Below are positions 520-30,346 of a stretch of DNA of 31,378 nucleotides, one piece after another. The notes under the pieces are model-generated. The model was not told the DNA's origin and made no database searches. It was given only the letters and a program-made list of their open reading frames with translations. How positions within the stretch are numbered: the first letter of the stretch is position 1; every line of letters begins with the position of its first letter. Origin of the DNA: a virus; the IMG/VR virus record IMGVR_UViG_3300042922_001140, positions 1 through 31,378 of that record, one strand, 5' to 3'. The position numbers and the translations under genes are program-made.

Positions 520-1098
520 GTGGCAAAAGACGGAACGAACAGAGGGGGAAGACGAGTTCGCGCAGGCGATAAGCCATTATCTCTTTCTGATAAAATAACG
601 AACGGTAAGTCGGCAAAGGTATTGGAAGTGCCAGACCTACAGCCTGAAACAGTACTTAAGATTGATGAACCAGAAGGAGTTGCAGATTTATATGGGGAAG
701 ATATGCCAGCTCCAAGTGATTACCTTAGTGCAAAGCAAAGGGACGGTAAGCCCTTAGGTGCAGATTTATTATTCACTGAAACTTGGAAATGGCTGAAGGA
801 ACGTGGATGTGAGAAGTTTGTTAATCCTCGATTGATTGAAGCCTATGCTCAAGCATTCACCCGATATATTCAGTGCGAGGAAGCGATTAGTACATACGGA
901 CTTTTAGGAAAACATCCAACAACAGGCGGTGCGATAACAAGTCCATTTGTACAGATGAGCCAGTCGTTTCAAAAGCAAGCAAATCTCATCTGGTATGAGA
1001 TTTTTGATATCGTAAAGCAAAATTGCACTACATCATTTATTGGAAATCCTCAAGACGATATTATGGATGCACTTTTATCGGGTAGAAAAGGAAGGTAG
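520..1098 (+). CDS. terS: Phage terminase small subunit, P27 family
   Basis: A 192-residue DNA-recognition subunit of the packaging motor. The N-terminus (MAKDGTNRGGRR) is the basic Gly/Arg-rich leader typical of P27-family small terminases. The helical core includes the LTETWKW-like segment and an FVNPRLIEAYAQAFTRY helix. The C-terminal part (SQSFQKQANLIWYEIFDIV) is the family's conserved multimerisation region. The start is the GTG at 520; an AAAGGGG ribosome site at 506-512 lies at suitable distance. An ATG two bases earlier is in another frame and stops after about 28 codons. The partner large subunit is at 7132, unusually distant because an accessory cassette separates them. Confidence 0.9.
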   Translation: MAKDGTNRGGRRVRAGDKPLSLSDKITNGKSAKVLEVPDLQPETVLKIDEPEGVADLYGEDMPAPSDYLSAKQRDGKPLGADLLFTETWKWLKERGCEKFVNPRLIEAYAQAFTRYIQCEEAISTYGLLGKHPTTGGAITSPFVQMSQSFQKQANLIWYEIFDIVKQNCTTSFIGNPQDDIMDALLSGRKGR

Positions 1099-1101
1099 TA
1101 C

Positions 1102-1248
1102 ATGACTCTTAATATATTCTTAACGCATTTAAAAATGCAAAGAGAAAGATTAAGCAAACAACAGTACAAAACAATTCGCGGGCAAGCAATTGCTGGCGAT
1201 ATTTTTGGCGCAAATAAAGGTCTAATAAAATTGCTAAGACGGGAGTGA
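1102..1248 (+). CDS. Small conserved phage protein, 48 residues
   Basis: A 48-codon gene begins with ATG at 1102, three bases after the small terminase stop, and ends in TGA at 1246-1248. A GGAAGG ribosome site lies at about 1090-1095 inside the terS end. The product (MTLNIFLTHLKMQRERLSKQ at its start) is basic, looks helical and ends KGLIKLLRRE. I recall proteins of this size and pattern, with a QAIAGDIFGANKGL-type centre, beside methyltransferases in clostridial prophages, but I know no function. Tight spacing on both sides and a good ribosome site make it a real gene of the packaging/methyltransferase operon. Confidence 0.72.
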   Translation: MTLNIFLTHLKMQRERLSKQQYKTIRGQAIAGDIFGANKGLIKLLRRE

Positions 1249-1253
1249 ATCAC

Positions 1254-2513
1254 TTGGATAATGAAAATAAATTTACACAGGAAATGCAGCAAGTTGAAAT
1301 ATCAAAACTTGTACCATATGCTAATAATTCAAGAACCCATAGTAAAGAACAAATAAAAAAACTACAATCAAGTCTTAGGGAGTTCGGGTTTGTGAATCCG
1401 ATTTTGATTGATAGAAAATATAACATTATAGCAGGGCATGGCAGAGTATTGGCTGCAAAGGAAGATGGCATAGAAACAGTGCCTTGTGTATTTGTCGACC
1501 ATTTAACAGAGGCACAAAAGAAAGCTTACATTATTGCAGATAATAGGCTTGCTGAAGATGCAGGATGGGATAAAGATTTACTAACCATTGAATTGGAAAG
1601 CTTAAAAGAACTTGAGTTTGATCTCGACATTTTGGGATTTGATGCGGCTGAATTAAATACACTTTTAAACGCCGCTGATGATGTACAAGAAGATGACTTC
1701 GATGTTGATGAAGAACTGAAAAAGCCTCCACTTTCAAAGCAAGGTGATTTGTGGATTTTAGGAAGACATCGGCTTTTATGTGGGGACAGCACAAAATTAG
1801 AAACCTTTGATAAATTGATGGATGGTAAAAAAGCAAATTTAATCGTTACGGATCCCCCATACAATGTGAAATATGAAGGCACTGCAGGAAAGATAAAAAA
1901 TGATAATCTTTCTGCAGATGCCTTTTTTCATTTCCTTTTTGATAGTTTTAGCAATATGGAAAAGGTTATTGCTGATGATGGTTCTATTTATGTTTTCCAT
2001 GCCGATACCGAAGGACTTAACTTTAGAAAAGCTTTTGCAGATAGTGGGTTTTATTTAAGTGGCACTTGCATCTGGAAAAAGCAAAGTCTTGTTCTAGGAA
2101 GAAGTCCATATCAATGGCAGCATGAACCAATCCTCTTTGGCTGGAAGAAAACAGGAAAGCATCAGTGGTACTCAGATCGCAAACAAACGACGATTTGGGA
2201 ATTTAATAGACCAAGTAAAAATACAGACCATCCAACGATGAAACCAGTTGCACTTATCGCTTATCCAATCGGAAATTCCAGTTTAACAAACTCAATCGTT
2301 CTTGATCCGTTTGGTGGATCTGGTTCAACGCTGATAGCCTGTGAGCAAACAGATCGAATCTGTTATACCATAGAGCTCGATGAAAAGTATAGTGATGTTA
2401 TTGTAAAACGCTATATTGAGCAGATAGGTTCATCCGAAGGTGTATTTCTTTTGAGAGATGATGTCAAGTATAGGTACCATGATATATCGGGGGTGGCTGC
2501 CGATGAAGCGTAA
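1254..2513 (+). CDS. ParB-like domain fused to DNA (N4/N6) methyltransferase
   Basis: A bifunctional phage DNA methyltransferase. Residues about 13-135 form a ParB/Srx-like nucleotide-binding domain with the signature GHGR at 61-64 and a following helical region (KAYIIADNRLAE). From about 160 onward lies a beta-class amino-methyltransferase: catalytic DPPY at 200-203, then the AdoMet-binding DPFGGSGST at 351-359, in the order expected for this class. It probably methylates adenine or N4-cytosine and protects phage DNA from restriction; the target is unknown. I choose the TTG at 1254 because GGGAGTGA at 1241-1248 sits five bases before it. The in-frame GTG at 1245 overlaps the previous stop and lacks a ribosome site. 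The 3' end overlaps the next methyltransferase by 11 bases. Confidence 0.9.
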   Translation: MDNENKFTQEMQQVEISKLVPYANNSRTHSKEQIKKLQSSLREFGFVNPILIDRKYNIIAGHGRVLAAKEDGIETVPCVFVDHLTEAQKKAYIIADNRLAEDAGWDKDLLTIELESLKELEFDLDILGFDAAELNTLLNAADDVQEDDFDVDEELKKPPLSKQGDLWILGRHRLLCGDSTKLETFDKLMDGKKANLIVTDPPYNVKYEGTAGKIKNDNLSADAFFHFLFDSFSNMEKVIADDGSIYVFHADTEGLNFRKAFADSGFYLSGTCIWKKQSLVLGRSPYQWQHEPILFGWKKTGKHQWYSDRKQTTIWEFNRPSKNTDHPTMKPVALIAYPIGNSSLTNSIVLDPFGGSGSTLIACEQTDRICYTIELDEKYSDVIVKRYIEQIGSSEGVFLLRDDVKYRYHDISGVAADEA

Positions 2514-4439: not shown

Positions 4440-5132
4440 ATGAATATAAAATTCAACCGAACAGGTAGCGAGCGAAAAGAACTGGTTACAGCAATCGGTG
4501 AAATACTTGAAACAAAACCAGTTTATAAAGGTGCGCCTACATTTATCTATGACGTTGATGGTTTTGAAGTGGATAAGGAAGGTACCCTTTCCTTTGATGA
4601 CGGCACTGACAGCGAAATAAGCGAAACACTGCTTGAGGAACTTGTAAGCCGAGGGTTTGCCTTTGAGAAACCTGAAACTGCGACACAGGGCAACACAGGC
4701 GCTTACGATTTGCTTGTAATTGAACTACCGAAGGAAGGGTTCACCGAGAATGCGATTGCGAACCTTGAAAAGCTTATCGAAAGTAAGGGTTCGATTATAA
4801 AGAAAGCATTTGGTGTTGATGCACTTCCGATTGAGCAGACGGAGGAAACGTTTCGTTTCCCTTGGTTTGCTTTTCACATGAATGCAGATGAGGCCAAAGC
4901 CTACGCTCATTTTATTTCAGCCATATGCGAAATGGCTAAGTCGCAGGTGAGAATAACCGCAACAGTTAAAGATGTGGTGAACGAAAAGTATGCATTTCGC
5001 TGTTTCCTCTTGCGACTAGGTTTTATCGGTTCCGAGTTTAAAGATGAGCGAAAGATTCTACTTTCAAGACTGACAGGTAGTTCGGCTTTTAAAAGTGGAA
5101 CACCCACGCATGAGGGGGTGAAATCGGAATGA
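4440..5132 (+). CDS. Amidoligase-companion protein of unknown function
   Basis: A 230-residue soluble protein of a type I recall as 'virulence-related' or hypothetical beside phage amidoligases; no function is established. Its C-terminal part (about 179-220) aligns without gaps to amidoligase residues 256-297 encoded 1.2 kb downstream, with 20 identities in 42 positions, including R-GFIG-EF. The preceding strand and helix (about 137-170) are also compatible with the amidoligase's C-terminal half. The amidoligase N-terminal GIEIEF and CGIHIH motifs are absent, so this is not an active ligase of that type. The ATG at 4440 is chosen for the AAAGGTGGT site at 4425-4432. The stop overlaps the next ATG (ATGA). 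The acidic N-terminal half (FIYDVDGFEVD) is not recognised. Confidence 0.8.
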   Translation: MNIKFNRTGSERKELVTAIGEILETKPVYKGAPTFIYDVDGFEVDKEGTLSFDDGTDSEISETLLEELVSRGFAFEKPETATQGNTGAYDLLVIELPKEGFTENAIANLEKLIESKGSIIKKAFGVDALPIEQTEETFRFPWFAFHMNADEAKAYAHFISAICEMAKSQVRITATVKDVVNEKYAFRCFLLRLGFIGSEFKDERKILLSRLTGSSAFKSGTPTHEGVKSE

Positions 5133-5427: not shown

Positions 5428-5457
5428 TTGCTATATATCCCTTTTAGAGTGATATAT
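5428..5457 (+). promoter_or_regulatory. Repeated promoter-like element, copy 2
   Basis: TTGCTA at 5428-5433, 17 bases, then GATATA at 5451-5456; the core TTTAGAGTGATATAT is at 5443-5457. It shares CTTGCTAT at the -35 side with copy 1. It lies in the 144-base gap between DUF4314 and the amidoligase, 43 bases before the amidoligase ATG. The rest of the gap shows no credible gene. Confidence 0.6.
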
Positions 5458-5500
5458 GTACATGTCGAAAGGACATACACACTTTAAAGGAGAGAAAACA

Positions 5501-6400
5501 ATGTTAGGAGTAAAATTCGGAATTGAAATTGAGTTTACAGGAATTACAAGAGAAAGGGCTGCCAGAGTTGCAGCGGAATTTTTACAAGGTACTTATGATG
5601 AAGGTGGCACATATTACGACACCAAGAAGGTAACAACAACGGACGGTAGGGTTTGGAAGTTTATGTACGACGGCAGCATCAATTGTCAAAGCAAAGAGAA
5701 CGGAAGAAAGGTATCCGCAGGCAGAGAGTACAGTGTGGAGTTGGTTAGCCCAATCCTATCTTATCAGCAGGATATCGAAACTCTGCAAGAATTAGTTAGA
5801 CAGCTACGACAAGCTGGTGCATTTTCAAACACCTCTTGCGGTATCCATATTCACCTTGATGGTGCAGAACATACACCAAGGAGTATTCGGAACTTTGTAA
5901 ACATTATCGCAAGCAAGAATGACCTTTTTTATAAAGCGCTAGAGATTGCGCCTCAAAGAATGAACTATTGCAAAAAGATGGATAGCATTCTGGTCGAGAA
6001 ACTTAACCGCAAGAAACCAACCACCATGCGCCAGATTGAAGAAATATGGTACGAGGGATACAGCGAAGGCCGCAGTACACATTATCACAACAGTCGATAC
6101 CATTTTCTAAATCTTCATAGCTTTTTTACAAGCAATCACACAGTGGAACTTAGAGGGTTTAATAGCGAGCTTCATGCGGGCAAGATAAGAAGCTACATTG
6201 TTCTTGCCCTTGCCCTCAACCACCAAGCTTTAACACAGAAATGTGCATCAGCAAAGAAACCGCAGGTTGAGAATGAAAAATTTGCAATGAGAACCTACTT
6301 GAATCGTATTGGTTTTATTGGCGAGGAATTTGCAAACTGCAGAGAACATCTGACAACAGCACTTTCAGGGTCAGCGGCTTGGCGATTTCGGGCCGCCTGA
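5501..6400 (+). CDS. Amidoligase (GCS/glutamine-synthetase-like carboxylate-amine ligase)
   Basis: A 299-residue member of the Amidoligase_2 type. Visible signatures are FGIEIEF at 6-12 (metal-binding acidic residues), EYSVELVSPIL around 76-86, CGIHIHLD at 113-120, and YHFLNLHSFF followed by HTVELRGFNSELHAGKIR at 200-230. These enzymes use ATP to join an amine to a carboxylate. In phages they are proposed (Iyer, Aravind and colleagues) to act with cyclotransferase-like proteins in making or modifying peptide tags; the substrate here is unknown. The C-terminal module (256-297) is shared with the product of the gene at 4440. The ATG at 5501 has AAAGGAGAG at 5487-5495; the frame extends to 5456 without a ribosome site. 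Confidence 0.88.
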   Translation: MLGVKFGIEIEFTGITRERAARVAAEFLQGTYDEGGTYYDTKKVTTTDGRVWKFMYDGSINCQSKENGRKVSAGREYSVELVSPILSYQQDIETLQELVRQLRQAGAFSNTSCGIHIHLDGAEHTPRSIRNFVNIIASKNDLFYKALEIAPQRMNYCKKMDSILVEKLNRKKPTTMRQIEEIWYEGYSEGRSTHYHNSRYHFLNLHSFFTSNHTVELRGFNSELHAGKIRSYIVLALALNHQALTQKCASAKKPQVENEKFAMRTYLNRIGFIGEEFANCREHLTTALSGSAAWRFRAA

Positions 6401-7131: not shown

Positions 7132-8742
7132 GTGGCGGCGATACGAAAACTAAAGACATACAAGCCGACCATCTTCAAGTCAGATGGATCGGTTTATAAC
7201 AAAGATGCGGCAGATACTGCTGTTTCCTTTATCAATTGTTTAAAACACACGAAGGGTGAATGGTATGGACAGTCATTTGAACTAATTGACTGGCAGGAGC
7301 AAATTGTACGTGATGTGTTTGGCATCATGAAACCAAACGGATACCGACAGCTCAATACGGCTTATATCGAAATTGCTAAGAAGCAAGGAAAATCTGAACT
7401 TGCTGCAGCAATTGCACTACTTCTTACTTGTGGAGATTATGAGCATGGTGGTGAGGTGTATGGCTGTGCATCTGACAGGCAGCAAGCATCAATTGTATTT
7501 GATGTGGCTGTTGAAATGGTAGAACAGTGTCCAGCTCTTAAGGCTAGGATCAAGCCAGTGTTATCTCAGAAAAGATTAGTATATAAACCACTTGGCAGTT
7601 TCTATCAAGTGTTATCTGCCGAGGCCTATACCAAACATGGGTTGAACGTTCATGGAGTTGTATTTGATGAGCTACATGCGCAACCAAATCGTCAGCTGTT
7701 TGATGTTATGACACACGGTTCGGGAGATGCAAGAAAGCAACCACTGTACTTTCTGATTACAACTGCAGGAAACGATCCACACTCCATATGCTATGAGGTA
7801 CATCAAAAAGCCAAAGATATCCTAGAAGGGCGAAAGGTTGATCCTACATTCTATCCAGTCATTTATGGTGCTGAAGAAGCCGATGATTGGACAGATCCAA
7901 AGGTATGGGCGAAAGCCAACCCCTCAATGGGAATTACTGTGGATATCGAAAAGATACAGATTGCTTGTGAAAGTGCAAAGCAAAACCCTGCAGAAGAAAA
8001 CTTGTTCAGGCAGCTTCGTCTAAATCAATGGGTGAAACAATCGGTACGTTGGATGCCTATGGAAAAATGGGATAAATGTTCTTTTGCAGTAGATCCTGAA
8101 AGTCTTATAGGTAGACAATGCTATGGTGGTTTGGACTTATCATCAACTACAGATATAACCGCCTTTGTTCTTGTCTTTCCACCAGAGTATGAAGATGACA
8201 AGTATATCGTTCTTCCTTATTTTTGGATACCGGAAGATAACCTCGATCTAAGAGTGAGACGTGACCATGTACCTTATGATATATGGGAAAAACAAGAATA
8301 CCTTAAGACTACAGAAGGCAATGTGGTTCATTATGGATTTATTGAAAAATTCATTGAAGAACTTGGTGAGAAGTATAATATTCGAGAAATTGCCTTTGAC
8401 CGCTGGGGTGCAGTGCAGATGGTACAGAACCTGGAAGGGTTGGGATTAACAGTGGTGCCATTCGGTCAAGGATTTAAAGATATGTCACCACCAACTAAAG
8501 AATTGATGAAGCTGACACTGGAAGGGAAAATTGCTCACGGTGGACACCCGGTACTTCGATGGATGATGGACAATATATTTATTAGAACTGATCCCGCTGG
8601 TAATATCAAACCAGATAAGGAAAAGAGTACAGAAAAAATAGATGGCACGGTTGCGACAATTATGGCTCTTGATAGAGCTATTCGTTGTGGTGGTAAAACA
8701 GAAGGTAGTGTGTATGATGCGAGAGGGTTATTAGTTTTCTGA
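7132..8742 (+). CDS. terL: Phage terminase large subunit
   Basis: A 536-residue packaging motor ATPase-nuclease. The Walker A-like segment is IAKKQGKSELAAA (81-93) and the Walker B region is GVVFDELHAQ (175-184). A coupling-type TTAGND follows. The C-terminal nuclease opens with YGGLDLSSTTD near residue 335, has FDRWGAVQMV, and ends with DGTVATIMALDRAI carrying a late catalytic Asp. Length and architecture fit the HK97/phage-terminase group. The GTG at 7132 is the only reasonable start, but its G-rich site (GGGGGGAGG at 7124-7132) is unusually close and overlaps it. Together with HNH and small terminase it forms the cos-cutting packaging complex. Confidence 0.96.
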   Translation: MAAIRKLKTYKPTIFKSDGSVYNKDAADTAVSFINCLKHTKGEWYGQSFELIDWQEQIVRDVFGIMKPNGYRQLNTAYIEIAKKQGKSELAAAIALLLTCGDYEHGGEVYGCASDRQQASIVFDVAVEMVEQCPALKARIKPVLSQKRLVYKPLGSFYQVLSAEAYTKHGLNVHGVVFDELHAQPNRQLFDVMTHGSGDARKQPLYFLITTAGNDPHSICYEVHQKAKDILEGRKVDPTFYPVIYGAEEADDWTDPKVWAKANPSMGITVDIEKIQIACESAKQNPAEENLFRQLRLNQWVKQSVRWMPMEKWDKCSFAVDPESLIGRQCYGGLDLSSTTDITAFVLVFPPEYEDDKYIVLPYFWIPEDNLDLRVRRDHVPYDIWEKQEYLKTTEGNVVHYGFIEKFIEELGEKYNIREIAFDRWGAVQMVQNLEGLGLTVVPFGQGFKDMSPPTKELMKLTLEGKIAHGGHPVLRWMMDNIFIRTDPAGNIKPDKEKSTEKIDGTVATIMALDRAIRCGGKTEGSVYDARGLLVF

Positions 8743-8835: not shown

Positions 8836-9747
8836 ATGAACACAACAAGAGTTATGTACCAATGCAATATTGATCCAGAAGTATCTGAGAAATTCGTTTT
8901 AGCACTTATGCTAAATAAGGAAGATGCAGATTCTGTTGTTGAAAAAATGATGAGCCAATATATTTCTGAAAGTTTTTCAAGGGTTTCAAAGGCATTTTCT
9001 TCAACTGAAGAGAAACAGATAATTTCATCTTATGATAGTAATGAAGACTTTGGTAAGGCAAATCGTAGAATACCAAGTTGGGCTAGAAAGCCCCAGCAAA
9101 ACAATCATAGAATAATAAAGGCTTTCCTTGAATTATTTGAGGAGTTTGGTTCTGTTACAGTTGAAGAACTAAGTGAACGGTGTAGCAATGCTGATGAATA
9201 TCCTGAACTATTTGTCTCTGATTTTAAAGGGAATTTTGCTCAGATGAAAACTGATGCAGGGAAATCTCATGGAAAAGTTTTTATTACAAATGGTGATGAT
9301 GTTGAAATATGGGATGATGTTAAAGATGTGTTAATCGCTAATAAAAATTCTTTTCTTGGAAACGATGAAGGATCTGCCAACCGTAATAAAATAACTAAGT
9401 TGCAAATAGAAACAGTATATGATTATGCAAAAAAGGCTTACCATGGTGAAATTAGTGGTCCTAAAGCTGCAGATAAAGTCGCAGAGCAATCAGGGATGAA
9501 TCGAAATTCTGCACAACGTTCAATATATGTATTTATGAACATGATGAATAGCCAAGTATATAAGAGTATTATAGGCGAGGAACAGACAAGGTATTATTTT
9601 GAAAATATACTTAATGATTTTGGTAAGGAGAGTTTGGCATCTGCGATTAAAGCAACAGAGAAGCATATTCAATATCGTGAAGACAAATTTCATACTAATG
9701 TATTTGGCATACGACAGATAGTAGAAGAATTCAAAAAGAAAATATAG
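8836..9747 (+). CDS. Stand-alone accessory (moron-like) protein, putative DNA-binding
   Basis: A 303-residue protein with no place in head assembly, set between large terminase and portal with its own promoter region and terminator. The N-terminus (about 5-45, NIDPEVSEKFVLALMLNKED) could be a ribbon-helix-helix-like segment. The middle (about 80-170) has IPSWARKPQQNNHRIIKAFLE and SHGKVFITNGDDVEIWDDV. The C-terminal about 105 residues (KAADKVAEQSGMNRNSAQRS, then a TRYYFENILNDFGKESLASA helix and HIQYRE) resemble, from memory, a helical module found with HNH or restriction-type proteins; no nuclease motif is seen. ACGGAGGAA at 8822-8829 sets the ATG at 8836. The AT-rich codon use differs from its neighbours. 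Immunity, exclusion or regulation are possible; function unknown. Confidence 0.75.
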   Translation: MNTTRVMYQCNIDPEVSEKFVLALMLNKEDADSVVEKMMSQYISESFSRVSKAFSSTEEKQIISSYDSNEDFGKANRRIPSWARKPQQNNHRIIKAFLELFEEFGSVTVEELSERCSNADEYPELFVSDFKGNFAQMKTDAGKSHGKVFITNGDDVEIWDDVKDVLIANKNSFLGNDEGSANRNKITKLQIETVYDYAKKAYHGEISGPKAADKVAEQSGMNRNSAQRSIYVFMNMMNSQVYKSIIGEEQTRYYFENILNDFGKESLASAIKATEKHIQYREDKFHTNVFGIRQIVEEFKKKI

Positions 9748-13255: not shown

Positions 13256-13276
13256 ATGCTGAAGGAGGCGGATGGT

Positions 13277-13594
13277 ATGACAACAGATAATCTTTTACCC
13301 AAGGTCAAAGCAAATCTAATCCTCACGCATGATGCGGATGACGAACTTCTGCTAAGTTACATCACCGCCGCCGTATCCTATGCAGAAAGCTATCAGCACG
13401 TTGCTATGGGTTTTTACAACGAAAATACCATGTCACCCACCACTGAACAGGCAATAATCATGCTGTCGGGCCACTTCTATGAAAGCAGAGATGGCTCGAC
13501 GGCTGGTTTCTTTTCCGACAGTGTGCAGGCAAGTCAGCAAGTGTGGAATACAGTAAATATTCTTTTGAGACTTGATAGGAAATGGGGGGTTTAG
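13277..13594 (+). CDS. Head-tail connector protein (gp6-like)
   Basis: A 105-residue adaptor that sits under the portal. The helical pattern is typical of the HK97 gp6/phage connector family: LLPKVKANLILTHDADDELL, then YITAAVSYAESYQ, then EQAIIMLSGHFYESRDG. GAAGGAGG at 13261-13268 selects the ATG at 13277; an in-frame ATG at 13256 lies before that site. The rightward operon is broken immediately after its stop by a leftward gene whose stop is at 13596, then resumes at 14501 with head closure. Confidence 0.88.
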   Translation: MTTDNLLPKVKANLILTHDADDELLLSYITAAVSYAESYQHVAMGFYNENTMSPTTEQAIIMLSGHFYESRDGSTAGFFSDSVQASQQVWNTVNILLRLDRKWGV

Positions 13595-13595
13595 G

Positions 13596-13952
13596 CTATG
13601 CCAACCGAAACATTGAGAACTCATCTGTAGATGGAATTTGCCCTCCACCAAACGTAAAATTATCAAGTCCGGCAAGGCTGAAAAATTGTATTTCAAGACT
13701 TCCGTCGAATTCATTCCTATTGAAGTCATCAGACAGATGCCACGCAATTTGTCGAGCAAAGCTGTCAGGTCCAACACCAGCCCCTCCGATTGGCAACGTG
13801 CCTATAAGTGTAGGATTTTGTGCGTTTACCAAAACAGCAATTTGATAAGCAGTTAAGAAACACGGAGTTCCATTGTAGTTTCCACTATTTCTGTATTGTT
13901 GTTGTCTTAATATCTGAGCAACAATCGGGCGAATGAGATTCCAGTTTTGCAT
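13596..13952 (-). CDS. Second gene of leftward accessory unit, unknown function
   Basis: A 118-residue protein encoded against the structural operon. The start at 13952 has a strong AAAGGAGG site seven bases upstream on the minus strand. It reads as helical at first (WNLIRPIVAQILRQQQY), then PCFLTAYQIAVLVN, a Gly-rich PIGGAGVGPDSFARQIAWHL, and a beta-rich end (LEIQFFSLAGLDNFTFGG, SMFRLA). The FLTAYQI/GGAGVG/SFA..IA..L pattern looks like a small recurring domain, possibly winged-helix-like, that I cannot name. Its stop is one base from the connector stop, so the two genes converge with no room for a terminator. It probably forms a two-gene system with its partner 25 bases upstream. Confidence 0.75.
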   Translation of the reverse strand: MQNWNLIRPIVAQILRQQQYRNSGNYNGTPCFLTAYQIAVLVNAQNPTLIGTLPIGGAGVGPDSFARQIAWHLSDDFNRNEFDGSLEIQFFSLAGLDNFTFGGGQIPSTDEFSMFRLA

Positions 13953-13977
13953 GGGAAAACCTCCTTTATACTTGTAT

Positions 13978-14391
13978 TCAATTGATTTCTTCAATGTGTT
14001 TAACTACTTTCATTGTAGCCTTTTTAATGGGGTCATAACGATAAACTGAAGCTGATTGAAACTTTGTGGATTCCGCACTTTTTGGTAAATCCTTCTGCTT
14101 CCAGACAACATATCCAAATGGCTCAAGAATGCATTTAATCATTAGTCCTATAGCCTGTTTAGTAAAGTTGTCATCAAAAGATATGGTTGGATTTTTGATA
14201 TCAAGTAGTAAATGCTCAAGGTGCTTTGCCCACGGTGTGAGTGCAGGTTTACCAGCATCACTTGCTTCAATCATTAAGATAATACTAATATCACGTGAGA
14301 GAAACTCAAAGATGATCATTGCATCAGCATTGCCGTCAAATTTGTTACAGTTAGGGTTTTGTGTGATGAAATTATTAAAAGTTGCTTTCAT
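13978..14391 (-). CDS. First gene of leftward accessory unit, unknown function
   Basis: A 137-residue soluble protein, not recognised. It has a helical N-terminal half (FNNFITQNPN, MIIFEFLSRDISIILMIEAS) and a C-terminal segment LMIKCILEPFGYVVWKQKDL followed by STKFQSASVYRYDP and a Lys-rich end. No membrane helix or signal peptide is obvious. The ATG at 14391 has GAGGAGTGA seven bases upstream on the minus strand and a near-consensus promoter behind it. It is first in a two-gene leftward operon inside head-tail genes, a typical place for a lysogenic-conversion or defence gene. Function is unknown. Confidence 0.75.
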   Translation of the reverse strand: MKATFNNFITQNPNCNKFDGNADAMIIFEFLSRDISIILMIEASDAGKPALTPWAKHLEHLLLDIKNPTISFDDNFTKQAIGLMIKCILEPFGYVVWKQKDLPKSAESTKFQSASVYRYDPIKKATMKVVKHIEEIN

Positions 14392-14434
14392 AATAGATTC
14401 ACTCCTCTGTTTAGTTAATGTGTTTCAGATATCT

Positions 14435-14463
14435 AATATAACATAACTGAAAAGAGATGTCAA
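14435..14463 (-). promoter_or_regulatory. Near-consensus promoter for the leftward unit
   Basis: On the minus strand TTGACA (14463-14458) is followed by exactly 17 bases and TATATT (14440-14435). Predicted transcription would begin about 40 bases before the ATG at 14391. This is one of the best vegetative promoters in the window and faces away from the structural operon, as expected for expression in the lysogen. Confidence 0.82.
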
Positions 14464-14474
14464 TAGGATTGACA
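14458..14474. repeat. Palindrome overlapping the leftward -35 box
   Basis: TGTCAAT at 14458-14464 and ATTGACA at 14468-14474 form a perfect 7-base inverted repeat around AGG. One arm contains the leftward -35 hexamer, so a dimeric repressor bound here could silence the unit. The other arm is a TTGACA facing right with no good -10 at 17 bases. Confidence 0.5.
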
Positions 14475-14500: not shown

Positions 14501-14836
14501 ATGAGCTTTGGAAAGATGAATACCTTCATTGATATTATCAGCACAGTGCCTATCAAAGACGAAGAAGGTTTTGCTAAAAAAGTTGATAACATGCTCGCTA
14601 GTGTACGTTCCTATAAGGAAGATCGTCACGGCAGTGAGAGATGGACGAATATGGCTTCATTCTCTACTGCATCTTCACTATTTCGATTTAGAAATATCCC
14701 CGGACTTAAGGTGACTAATGAAATGATCATAGTCTGTGGAGATGGCAGATACCAGATTTTAAGTGTAGAGGATGTACGAAGCCGTGGGATGTATGTCGAG
14801 GCTTTAGCAGAAAAATTAAAACCAACTGTGAGGTGA
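14501..14836 (+). CDS. Head closure / head-tail adaptor protein
   Basis: A 111-residue protein of the SPP1 gp16-like head-tail joining group. The pattern MNTFIDIISTVPIKDEEGFA, then a VRSYKEDRHGSERW strand, and GDGRYQILSVEDVRSRGMYVEALAEKL is typical of these beta-barrel adaptors. AAGGGGG at 14484-14490 serves the ATG. It normally follows the connector directly; here the leftward two-gene unit separates them, but the coding sequence is intact. Confidence 0.85.
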   Translation: MSFGKMNTFIDIISTVPIKDEEGFAKKVDNMLASVRSYKEDRHGSERWTNMASFSTASSLFRFRNIPGLKVTNEMIIVCGDGRYQILSVEDVRSRGMYVEALAEKLKPTVR

Positions 14837-28774: not shown

Positions 28775-30346
28775 ATGCGGAAAATAAGCAAAATAGGGGA
28801 GGCTATACCGAAGATAAAACTAATGAAAAGGGTAGCAGCCTACGCTCGTGTATCCAAAGATACCGAAGTACTTTTACATTCCTTTTCAGCCCAGATAAGT
28901 TACTATAGTTCTTTCATACAGAGAAATCCAGAATGGACTTATGTAGGTGTCTACGCAGATGAAGGAATTACTGGTACCAGCACAGAGAAGCGGGATGATT
29001 TCAAACGTCTCGTTGCAGACTGTGACGCAGGAAAAATTGACATTGTACTTACAAAGTCTATAAGCCGCTTCGCAAGAAATACAGTTGACCTTTTGGAAAC
29101 AGTCCGGCATCTGAAGGATATCGGAGTTGAGGTGCGGTTTGAAAGAGAAAACATCAGCTCCATGAGTGGAGATGGAGAACTATTGCTGACCATTTTGGCA
29201 TCCTTCGCACAAGAAGAAAGCAGAAGTATGTCGGAGAACATTAAATGGGCCATCAAAAAAGGATTTGAAAGAGGAGAACCACATTCAGCGAGTAGAGCCA
29301 TTGGTTATGAATGGGACGGTGGGCAATACCGAATTGTTCCCAAAGAAGCAGAGGTGGTTAGAATTATTTTTGAACAGTACCTTGCAGGTGTTTCCACACT
29401 ACAGTTACCTAAGTTACTTAATAAAAAAGGGGTAGTTGGAATTAATGGAAATCCATTGTCAAGGGCATCCATCAAGGACATTCTCCAAAATGAGATTTAC
29501 ATTGGAAACCTGGTGTTGCAGAAAAGCTACTCACCCAAAATAAGAAAGAGAAGTCTCAATTATGGTAAACTGCCAAAGTATCGGGTGGAAGAGGCACACG
29601 AACCGATTATCAGTAACGAGTTGTTCCAAGCGGTACAGAATGCACGTGTGGAGCGTGGTGAGACCGCATCAAATAAAAATAAGCAGGTTACTTGCTTTAC
29701 TGGCAAAATCCAATGCGGTAAATGTGGATATAAATGCAGCCGTAGAAATATTGCACATAGCAAAACAACAGAAAGAACTTCCTATAAGAGATGGGTATGT
29801 AATGCGTGTGAAACCAAGGGAAGAAAATTCTGCGATATGCAGCCGATTGATGAAGATTTACTTGGGTCGGCTTCAGCATTTGTCTTGGGAGAAAAGGTTC
29901 TGGATGAAGCTAGATTTCAAAGGGAAATCGATACGGTTTCAGTTTTCGATGATAGGATAGAATTCCTCTTTAAGAATGGAAAGATCAAGAAGTGGGCAAG
30001 GGATTACTCCTCAAAGCCGAGAGGAAGAACCTGTTTTACAGGAAGAATTAAATGTGGAAAATGCGGATCAAACTGCATTAGAAATCCAATTGCTCACAGT
30101 AAAACTACCGTTCGAGAGTATTACGAAAGGTGGACTTGCAACGGGCAGAGAAAGCATAAAATGGCTTTTTGCAATTTGAAATCATTTGATGAAGATGAAT
30201 TAAGAAAAGCTACTGCAACCTTACTTGGAGATAAGACAAATTATGAAGTAAGCTTCATCCAAGAGGTAGAAGAGGTCATCTTGTTTGATGACAAAGCCAT
30301 ATTTAATCATAAAGATGGGAGGAATTTAGAATGGCAAAGAGAGTAA
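28775..30346 (+). CDS. Large serine recombinase with duplicated zinc-ribbon region
   Basis: A 523-residue site-specific recombinase. The resolvase-type catalytic domain has YARVSK with nucleophile Ser27, then VYADEGITGTSTEKRDDFKR and SISRFARNTVDLLETV, the Arg-rich active site. The recombinase domain follows at about 170-300 (AIGYEWDGGQYRIVPKEAEV, LQNEIYIGNLVLQ). The C-terminal region holds two tandem copies of about 104 residues (about 307-410 and 420-523), each beginning CFTG(K/R)I and CGKCG. The first copy has CNAC as second ligand pair, whereas the second has CNGQ. AAGGAG at 28761-28766 precedes the ATG. It overlaps the next recombinase by 16 bases. It probably integrates and excises the element. 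Confidence 0.93.
   Translation: MRKISKIGEAIPKIKLMKRVAAYARVSKDTEVLLHSFSAQISYYSSFIQRNPEWTYVGVYADEGITGTSTEKRDDFKRLVADCDAGKIDIVLTKSISRFARNTVDLLETVRHLKDIGVEVRFERENISSMSGDGELLLTILASFAQEESRSMSENIKWAIKKGFERGEPHSASRAIGYEWDGGQYRIVPKEAEVVRIIFEQYLAGVSTLQLPKLLNKKGVVGINGNPLSRASIKDILQNEIYIGNLVLQKSYSPKIRKRSLNYGKLPKYRVEEAHEPIISNELFQAVQNARVERGETASNKNKQVTCFTGKIQCGKCGYKCSRRNIAHSKTTERTSYKRWVCNACETKGRKFCDMQPIDEDLLGSASAFVLGEKVLDEARFQREIDTVSVFDDRIEFLFKNGKIKKWARDYSSKPRGRTCFTGRIKCGKCGSNCIRNPIAHSKTTVREYYERWTCNGQRKHKMAFCNLKSFDEDELRKATATLLGDKTNYEVSFIQEVEEVILFDDKAIFNHKDGRNLEWQRE

Follow-up and report, generated by a model that had tools for sequence, protein, structure and literature searches.

The 31,378-base stretch of viral DNA analyzed here (the window, an IMG/VR virus record with HK97-like head genes) carries what is probably a moron in its late operon, i.e., a passenger transcription unit set backwards in a spare junction between structural genes. 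Its constant component is P1, a small protein whose relatives are found elsewhere alone or with other partners, and the inverted half-sites that surround the promoters of P1 genes are a conserved, P1-linked element. The P1 family, its DNA signature and its insertion pattern appear to be undescribed in the sources searched, although the kind of entity, an autoregulated moron, is already known.

A leftward unit in a spare junction of the late operon

Two minus-strand genes of 137 and 118 residues with strong ribosome-binding sites had been proposed from the sequence, and both open reading frames and both sites are present. P1 (137 aa; 13978..14391, minus strand) is preceded by GAGGAG (14402..14407, minus strand) and P2 (118 aa counted from its ATG; 13596..13952, minus strand) by AAGGAGG (13960..13966, minus strand); the genes are separated by 25 nt and served by one promoter. 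An in-frame TTG lies 14 codons upstream of the P2 ATG, but the ATG with its AAGGAGG site is the preferred start. Both P1 and P2 are real genes: differences from homologues are in excess at third codon positions (35/32/90 at positions 1/2/3 for P1 against the homologue in L161, and 35/24/74 for P2 against that in L191). The G+C content of the unit (37.0% vs. 41.3% for the window) is not extreme, with 9% of windows equally low.

To the left lies a head-tail connector gene (13256..13594, plus strand; PF05135, Phage_connect_1, E 1.4e-9; phrog_40), which is convergent with P2 and whose stop adjoins the P2 stop. To the right lies a head closure Hc1/head-completion gene (14501..14836, plus strand; PF05521, E 3.2e-14; phrog_25). 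Relatives of both flanking proteins were gathered from viral contigs to compare this junction. The gap is at most 30 nt in 110 of 118 distinct relatives (for example GTTTAGCATGAG in L009/L010) and 909 nt in the window, so that the two flanking genes are normally adjacent, as the sequence-only reading had assumed. The eight wide junctions comprise the window, one contig with a Mom-like gene (L061) and six with P1 homologues, two of which are overlapping cuts of one contig. Most close relatives thus retain an intact tight junction and lack the unit, which has, on the sequence evidence, a promoter independent of the surrounding operon. The sequence-only reading was right to see here an insert driven leftward by its own promoter and to exclude virion genes.

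That reading had also proposed looking for other morons at the same site, and L061 provides one: a Mom-like DNA-modification gene (4559-4999, plus strand; phrog_1384, E 1.7e-36). It shares the connector/head-closure slot with the P1 unit but lies in the forward direction, belongs to a known family and encodes an unrelated protein. The terminase/portal junction is a busier slot, exceeding 300 nt at 22 of 81 distinct junctions. In the window this slot, used by P1 in relatives, holds a gene for a 303-aa protein (8836-9747, plus strand) without a Pfam or PHROG match, which is probably another moron. A further insertion slot precedes the tape-measure gene (g16217|TMP), with more than 300 nt at 20 of 92 distinct junctions and a nucleotidyltransferase-like gene among the inserts in L024. 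In L044, the 2481-nt gap between the head protease and major capsid genes holds an ORF of 598 aa that resembles a reverse transcriptase, by eye of the group II intron type.

The promoter (14435..14463, minus strand) consists of a -35 TTGACA at 14463-14458, a 17-nt spacer and a -10 TATATT at 14440-14435. Already recognized from the letters, it stood up well: it matches the consensus at 11 of 12 positions, has a TG ahead of the -10 and ranks first among nine candidates in 3 kb, and its score was reached in one of 200 shuffles of its 150-nt region. A TTGACA/TAGACA-17-TATAAT-like promoter is kept about 39 nt before the P1 ATG in homologues at both insertion sites, and the unit could plausibly be expressed in the lysogen. 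No terminator-like site was found 3' of P2 on the minus strand. The window also encodes a large serine recombinase (28775-30346), and the phage, which we take to be a Bacillota siphophage, is therefore probably temperate. An amidoligase gene (PF12224, E 4.1e-77; 5456-6400, plus strand) precedes the terminase, and related genes occur in several relatives.

The P1 family and its exchangeable second gene

Viral-contig scans with the single P1 or P2 protein as query gave no match, nor did tblastn of either protein against phage and plasmid collections. A four-row P1 alignment (A1) recovered 21 viral and 11 genomic loci, and profile and operator searches added further ones. Homologues are 41-63% identical to P1, with a distant branch (L178, L188-L190, L204) at 22-28% that has the core 'GRMIKF.....GY' and the hairpin region in common with P1. 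At each of the 25 loci that have structural neighbors, some being near-copies, the close family is oriented antisense to those genes. These 25 are located at either connector/head closure or terminase/portal, and the stop of the P1 homologue often overlaps that of the neighboring structural gene. In the P1 tree, the window falls in a 99/99-supported set of nine with connector-site copies, and few changes of site are needed.

Members outside structural genes (L180-L182, L186-L189) occur in Bacillota and in one Synergistaceae bin (L180, where the homologue has an internal stop), and the chromosomal neighbors in L180-L182, L186 and L187 include no consistent partner; the L186 homologue belongs to Acetobacterium wieringae DSM 1911. 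In the distant branch, to which a homologue in Robertmurraya kyonggiensis NB22 belongs, the genes in L179, L190 and L204 read in the sense direction and precede the tape-measure gene. This branch also has two palindromes (TTAATGTAAC...TACATTAA type) ahead of the P1 homologue, downstream of the tail-chaperone gene (L190, ~7820-7925; L204, 1380-1500; L005, ~2630-2733). In L202, a Phd-like antitoxin ORF identified by eye (1038-1292, minus strand) adjoins the P1 gene beside the terminase.

Profile searches of P1 (Pfam and PHROGs up to an E of 1, NCBIfam, PADLOC) returned nothing above chance; a PADLOC match at E 0.04 and leads to PDC-S02 and DUF5713 were discarded as chance. PDB sequence profiles gave chance-level HPr matches for P1 and none for P2. 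No known Acr or Aca gene was recognized beside P1, nor any Acr/Aca homologue, and no description of such an antisense moron was found in open-access papers.

The AlphaFold2 model of P1 is confident (pLDDT 94.5, pTM 0.88) and shows six helices followed by a beta-hairpin. Comparison with the PDB and BFVD (Foldseek/VIA) gave no credible match, an absence that is no proof of a new fold. The highest-scoring structures, MAGE and an Smc5/6 subunit, reach Z 3.3-3.7 and are suggestive at most; the top one (MAGE, Z 3.7) is a winged-helix domain. Neither profiles nor the model revealed a canonical HTH in P1 and, with no fold match either, the argument for DNA binding by P1 comes from the operator. The P2 model (pLDDT 76.7, pTM 0.75, weak at 94-104) has a helix-helix-helix-hairpin arrangement. 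Its structure rows (Z 5-7.7) are within the stated background of the tool but consistent in kind, being mostly winged-helix domains (RNA polymerase III subunit, PadR/LmrR, Fur), and P2 is thus predicted to have a winged-helix fold. P2 had no match in Pfam, PHROGs, NCBIfam or PADLOC.

The gene that follows P1 varies. At the window's site P1 stands alone in L159, L164, L165 and L166, as it does in most terminase/portal copies. A gene for an unrelated 95-aa protein comes after it in L160-L163 (window's site) and in L207 (terminase/portal site), the L207 protein being 64% identical to that of L160-L163. Relatives of the 95-aa protein (~60-64% identity) occur on Sinorhizobium and Mesorhizobium plasmids (L211, 5980-6291; L212, 5980-6285), a jump across phyla which indicates that this protein, too, is mobile cargo. 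P1 followed by P2 was found in the window only. The closest relative of P2 (61%) is chromosomal and stands as a solo gene in two genomes from a single Clostridia-type family, in a class searched starting from a Lachnospiraceae bin. More distant relatives are frequent, again as solo genes, in one family of Bacilli (8 of 23 genomes), and a search with a two-row alignment of P2 gave no relative among viruses.

These observations bear on the proposal of the sequence-only reading that P1 and P2 form a two-protein system. A dedicated defense, exclusion or toxin-antitoxin pair would fit the shared strand and promoter, the short spacing and the strong ribosome-binding sites of both genes. It would also fit one Bacilli genome (L199, 413-4389, minus strand), where the gene immediately upstream of a Gabija GajA/GajB-like pair (GajA in two frames, GajB intact) encodes a distant relative of P2, although this linkage was seen at that locus only and the other P2 relatives are solo. 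A search for the P1-P2 pair in other elements found no second instance, and P1 usually has either no partner or a different one. We thus regard a dedicated pair as improbable. The same reading had overlooked the terminase/portal insertion site, the existence of a P1 family and the inverted half-sites at the promoter.

Operator-like half-sites at P1 promoters

Upstream of P1 genes we observed half-sites of the TTTYANNTATGTT type in the order A, inverted B and, often, C further down. In the window, half-site A (TTTCAGTTATGTTA; 14439..14452, minus strand) lies in the -35/-10 spacer and half-site B (TTTCAGATATCTAA; 14423..14436, plus strand) just downstream of the -10, inverted relative to A. A tentative half-site C (ACATTAACT in minus-strand reading; 14413..14421, minus strand), likewise inverted relative to A, is weak here and clearer in relatives. 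Other examples are TTTTACATATGT-TATATT-ACATATGTAAAA in L173, TCACGGGCGTTA..TAACGACCGTGA in L171, TTAGTTATGT..ACATAACTAA in L175 and TTAGTTACGTGAT-ATCACATAACTAA in L186. The arms around the -10 are perfect over 12 bp in L173 and 13 bp in L202; the latter was found through the P1 protein profile, in sequence not used to see the half-site pattern. Such repeats are also present at P1 genes that lie away from phage structural genes (L186, L189), whereas no clear operator was found in L187 and L205.

The inverted-repeat score summed over 25 upstream regions was 223, whereas the best of 200 shuffled sets reached 165, and arms agreed better within than between loci when A was compared with B or C (permutation p 0.006); in both tests the loci are related and kinship is uncorrected. 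When only A and B were compared, they did not agree significantly (p 0.12), and neither did B and C (p 0.38). The arms of the window are imperfect (10 of 14, p ~0.34), and several loci, the window included, are not significant singly. Elsewhere in the window, half-site matches appear only at three mismatches in 14, which is chance level.

One perfect form of the operator was then used as DNA alone. Among 2.9 million viral contigs it occurred in three, L173's own and two new ones, with P1 directly downstream in each. Among 291 genomes, allowing this pattern up to two mismatches gave one place, that of L202, beside P1, and a reversed control pattern gave none. Together these protein-blind scans led to four separate places, and at all of them a P1 gene lies directly downstream. 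A second pattern, modeled on the window/L165 promoter, matched L165's contig and no other.

Could the repeats merely reflect an AT-rich promoter and shared ancestry? The lack of significance at several loci taken singly and the kinship that the shuffles leave uncorrected both speak for this reading. The set-wide excess of inverted repeats, the long perfect arms in distant members and the recovery of P1 genes only by scans blind to protein argue against it, and we give it little credence.

Proposed self-regulation and alternative readings

The reading we favor, with a probability of roughly 0.55, is a self-regulated moron in which P1 is constant, the half-sites form an operator bound by P1, and exchangeable cargo follows. 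Its near-consensus promoter would probably drive P1 expression separately from the late genes, in lysogens and shortly after infection. The inverted half-sites wrapped around the -10 would act as operator, and P1 itself would most likely bind them and limit its own synthesis. The gene after P1 would be cargo: P2 here, recruited from a chromosomal family, the 95-aa protein elsewhere, and often none. The main job of P1 is probably, if tentatively, accessory interference with host defense or competing phages rather than virion building. Isoelectric points spread widely across the family (4.8-9.2), which counts against a uniformly basic DNA-binder.

In the simplest reading, P1 would be a moron protein that represses itself, with an architecture like that of autoregulated acr/aca or AcrIIA15 genes. 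In acr-aca operons the promoter region contains one or two inverted repeats (PMC9410906), and AcrIIA15 binds inverted repeats of its own promoter while inhibiting Cas9 (PMC10901769). Like AcrIIA15, AcrIIA1 and AcrIF24 (PMC10901769, PMC9410906, PMC9001735), P1 is a small phage or prophage gene with a near-consensus promoter and inverted repeats inside the core promoter, family-wide although imperfect in the window. Self-repression, common to these three, is something we infer for P1, which differs from them in its lack of a detected HTH and of any sequence or fold match, and in half-sites that flank the -10 where they have one compact repeat. With acr-aca operons (Aca1-10; PMC9410906) the unit shares the likeness of an autoregulated cassette with an exchangeable neighbor and one or two core-promoter repeats, but here the constant gene comes first and is usually alone, and no Acr/Aca homologue was found. 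The resemblance would thus be one of working, not of membership. A moron that inhibits virion assembly and blocks competing phages (PMC10884400) is likewise an extra temperate-phage gene outside the virion program; its likeness to P1 is in genomic setting.

A bolder version, which we consider doubtful, would make P1 a new bifunctional class of phage protein, with a fold lacking solved relatives. Such a protein would act through paired half-sites to repress its own promoter and would, as a separate activity, inactivate a host defense or a rival phage, and an exchangeable slot for cargo would lie behind its gene.

Operators that overlap a phage promoter are often those of the lysogeny repressor. 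The half-sites might accordingly be bound by another regulator, either that repressor or a host factor, which would time expression and leave P1 purely an effector; P1 has no recognized HTH, as this account would expect. Yet the element travels with P1, both to two late-operon sites and to places away from structural genes; its arms remain symmetric even though they vary from phage to phage; all scan matches are at P1; and the half-sites are absent elsewhere in the window, a stretch that does not take in the early/repressor region of the phage. We judge this account unlikely. Alternatively, P1 or the leftward transcript might control the life cycle of the phage itself, for example through antisense control, or by keeping the head genes silent in the lysogen. 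The constant antisense orientation to late genes and the lack of a terminator-like site after P2 are in keeping with such a role, which is hard to reconcile with the absence of P1 from these junctions in most close relatives, with two different operon positions and with the members outside structural genes; we therefore think it quite improbable.

Under the favored reading of a self-regulated moron, P1 and its relatives suggest an undescribed family of self-limiting virus-carried genes. P1 defines a recognizable family of phage passenger genes, its DNA signature retrieves members without use of the protein sequence, and two tight late-operon junctions (connector/head closure and terminase/portal) are now mapped as insertion slots in Bacillota phages. 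Self-limiting promoters are typical of anti-CRISPR genes, and the P1 family and its partner slot are therefore good candidates for screening.
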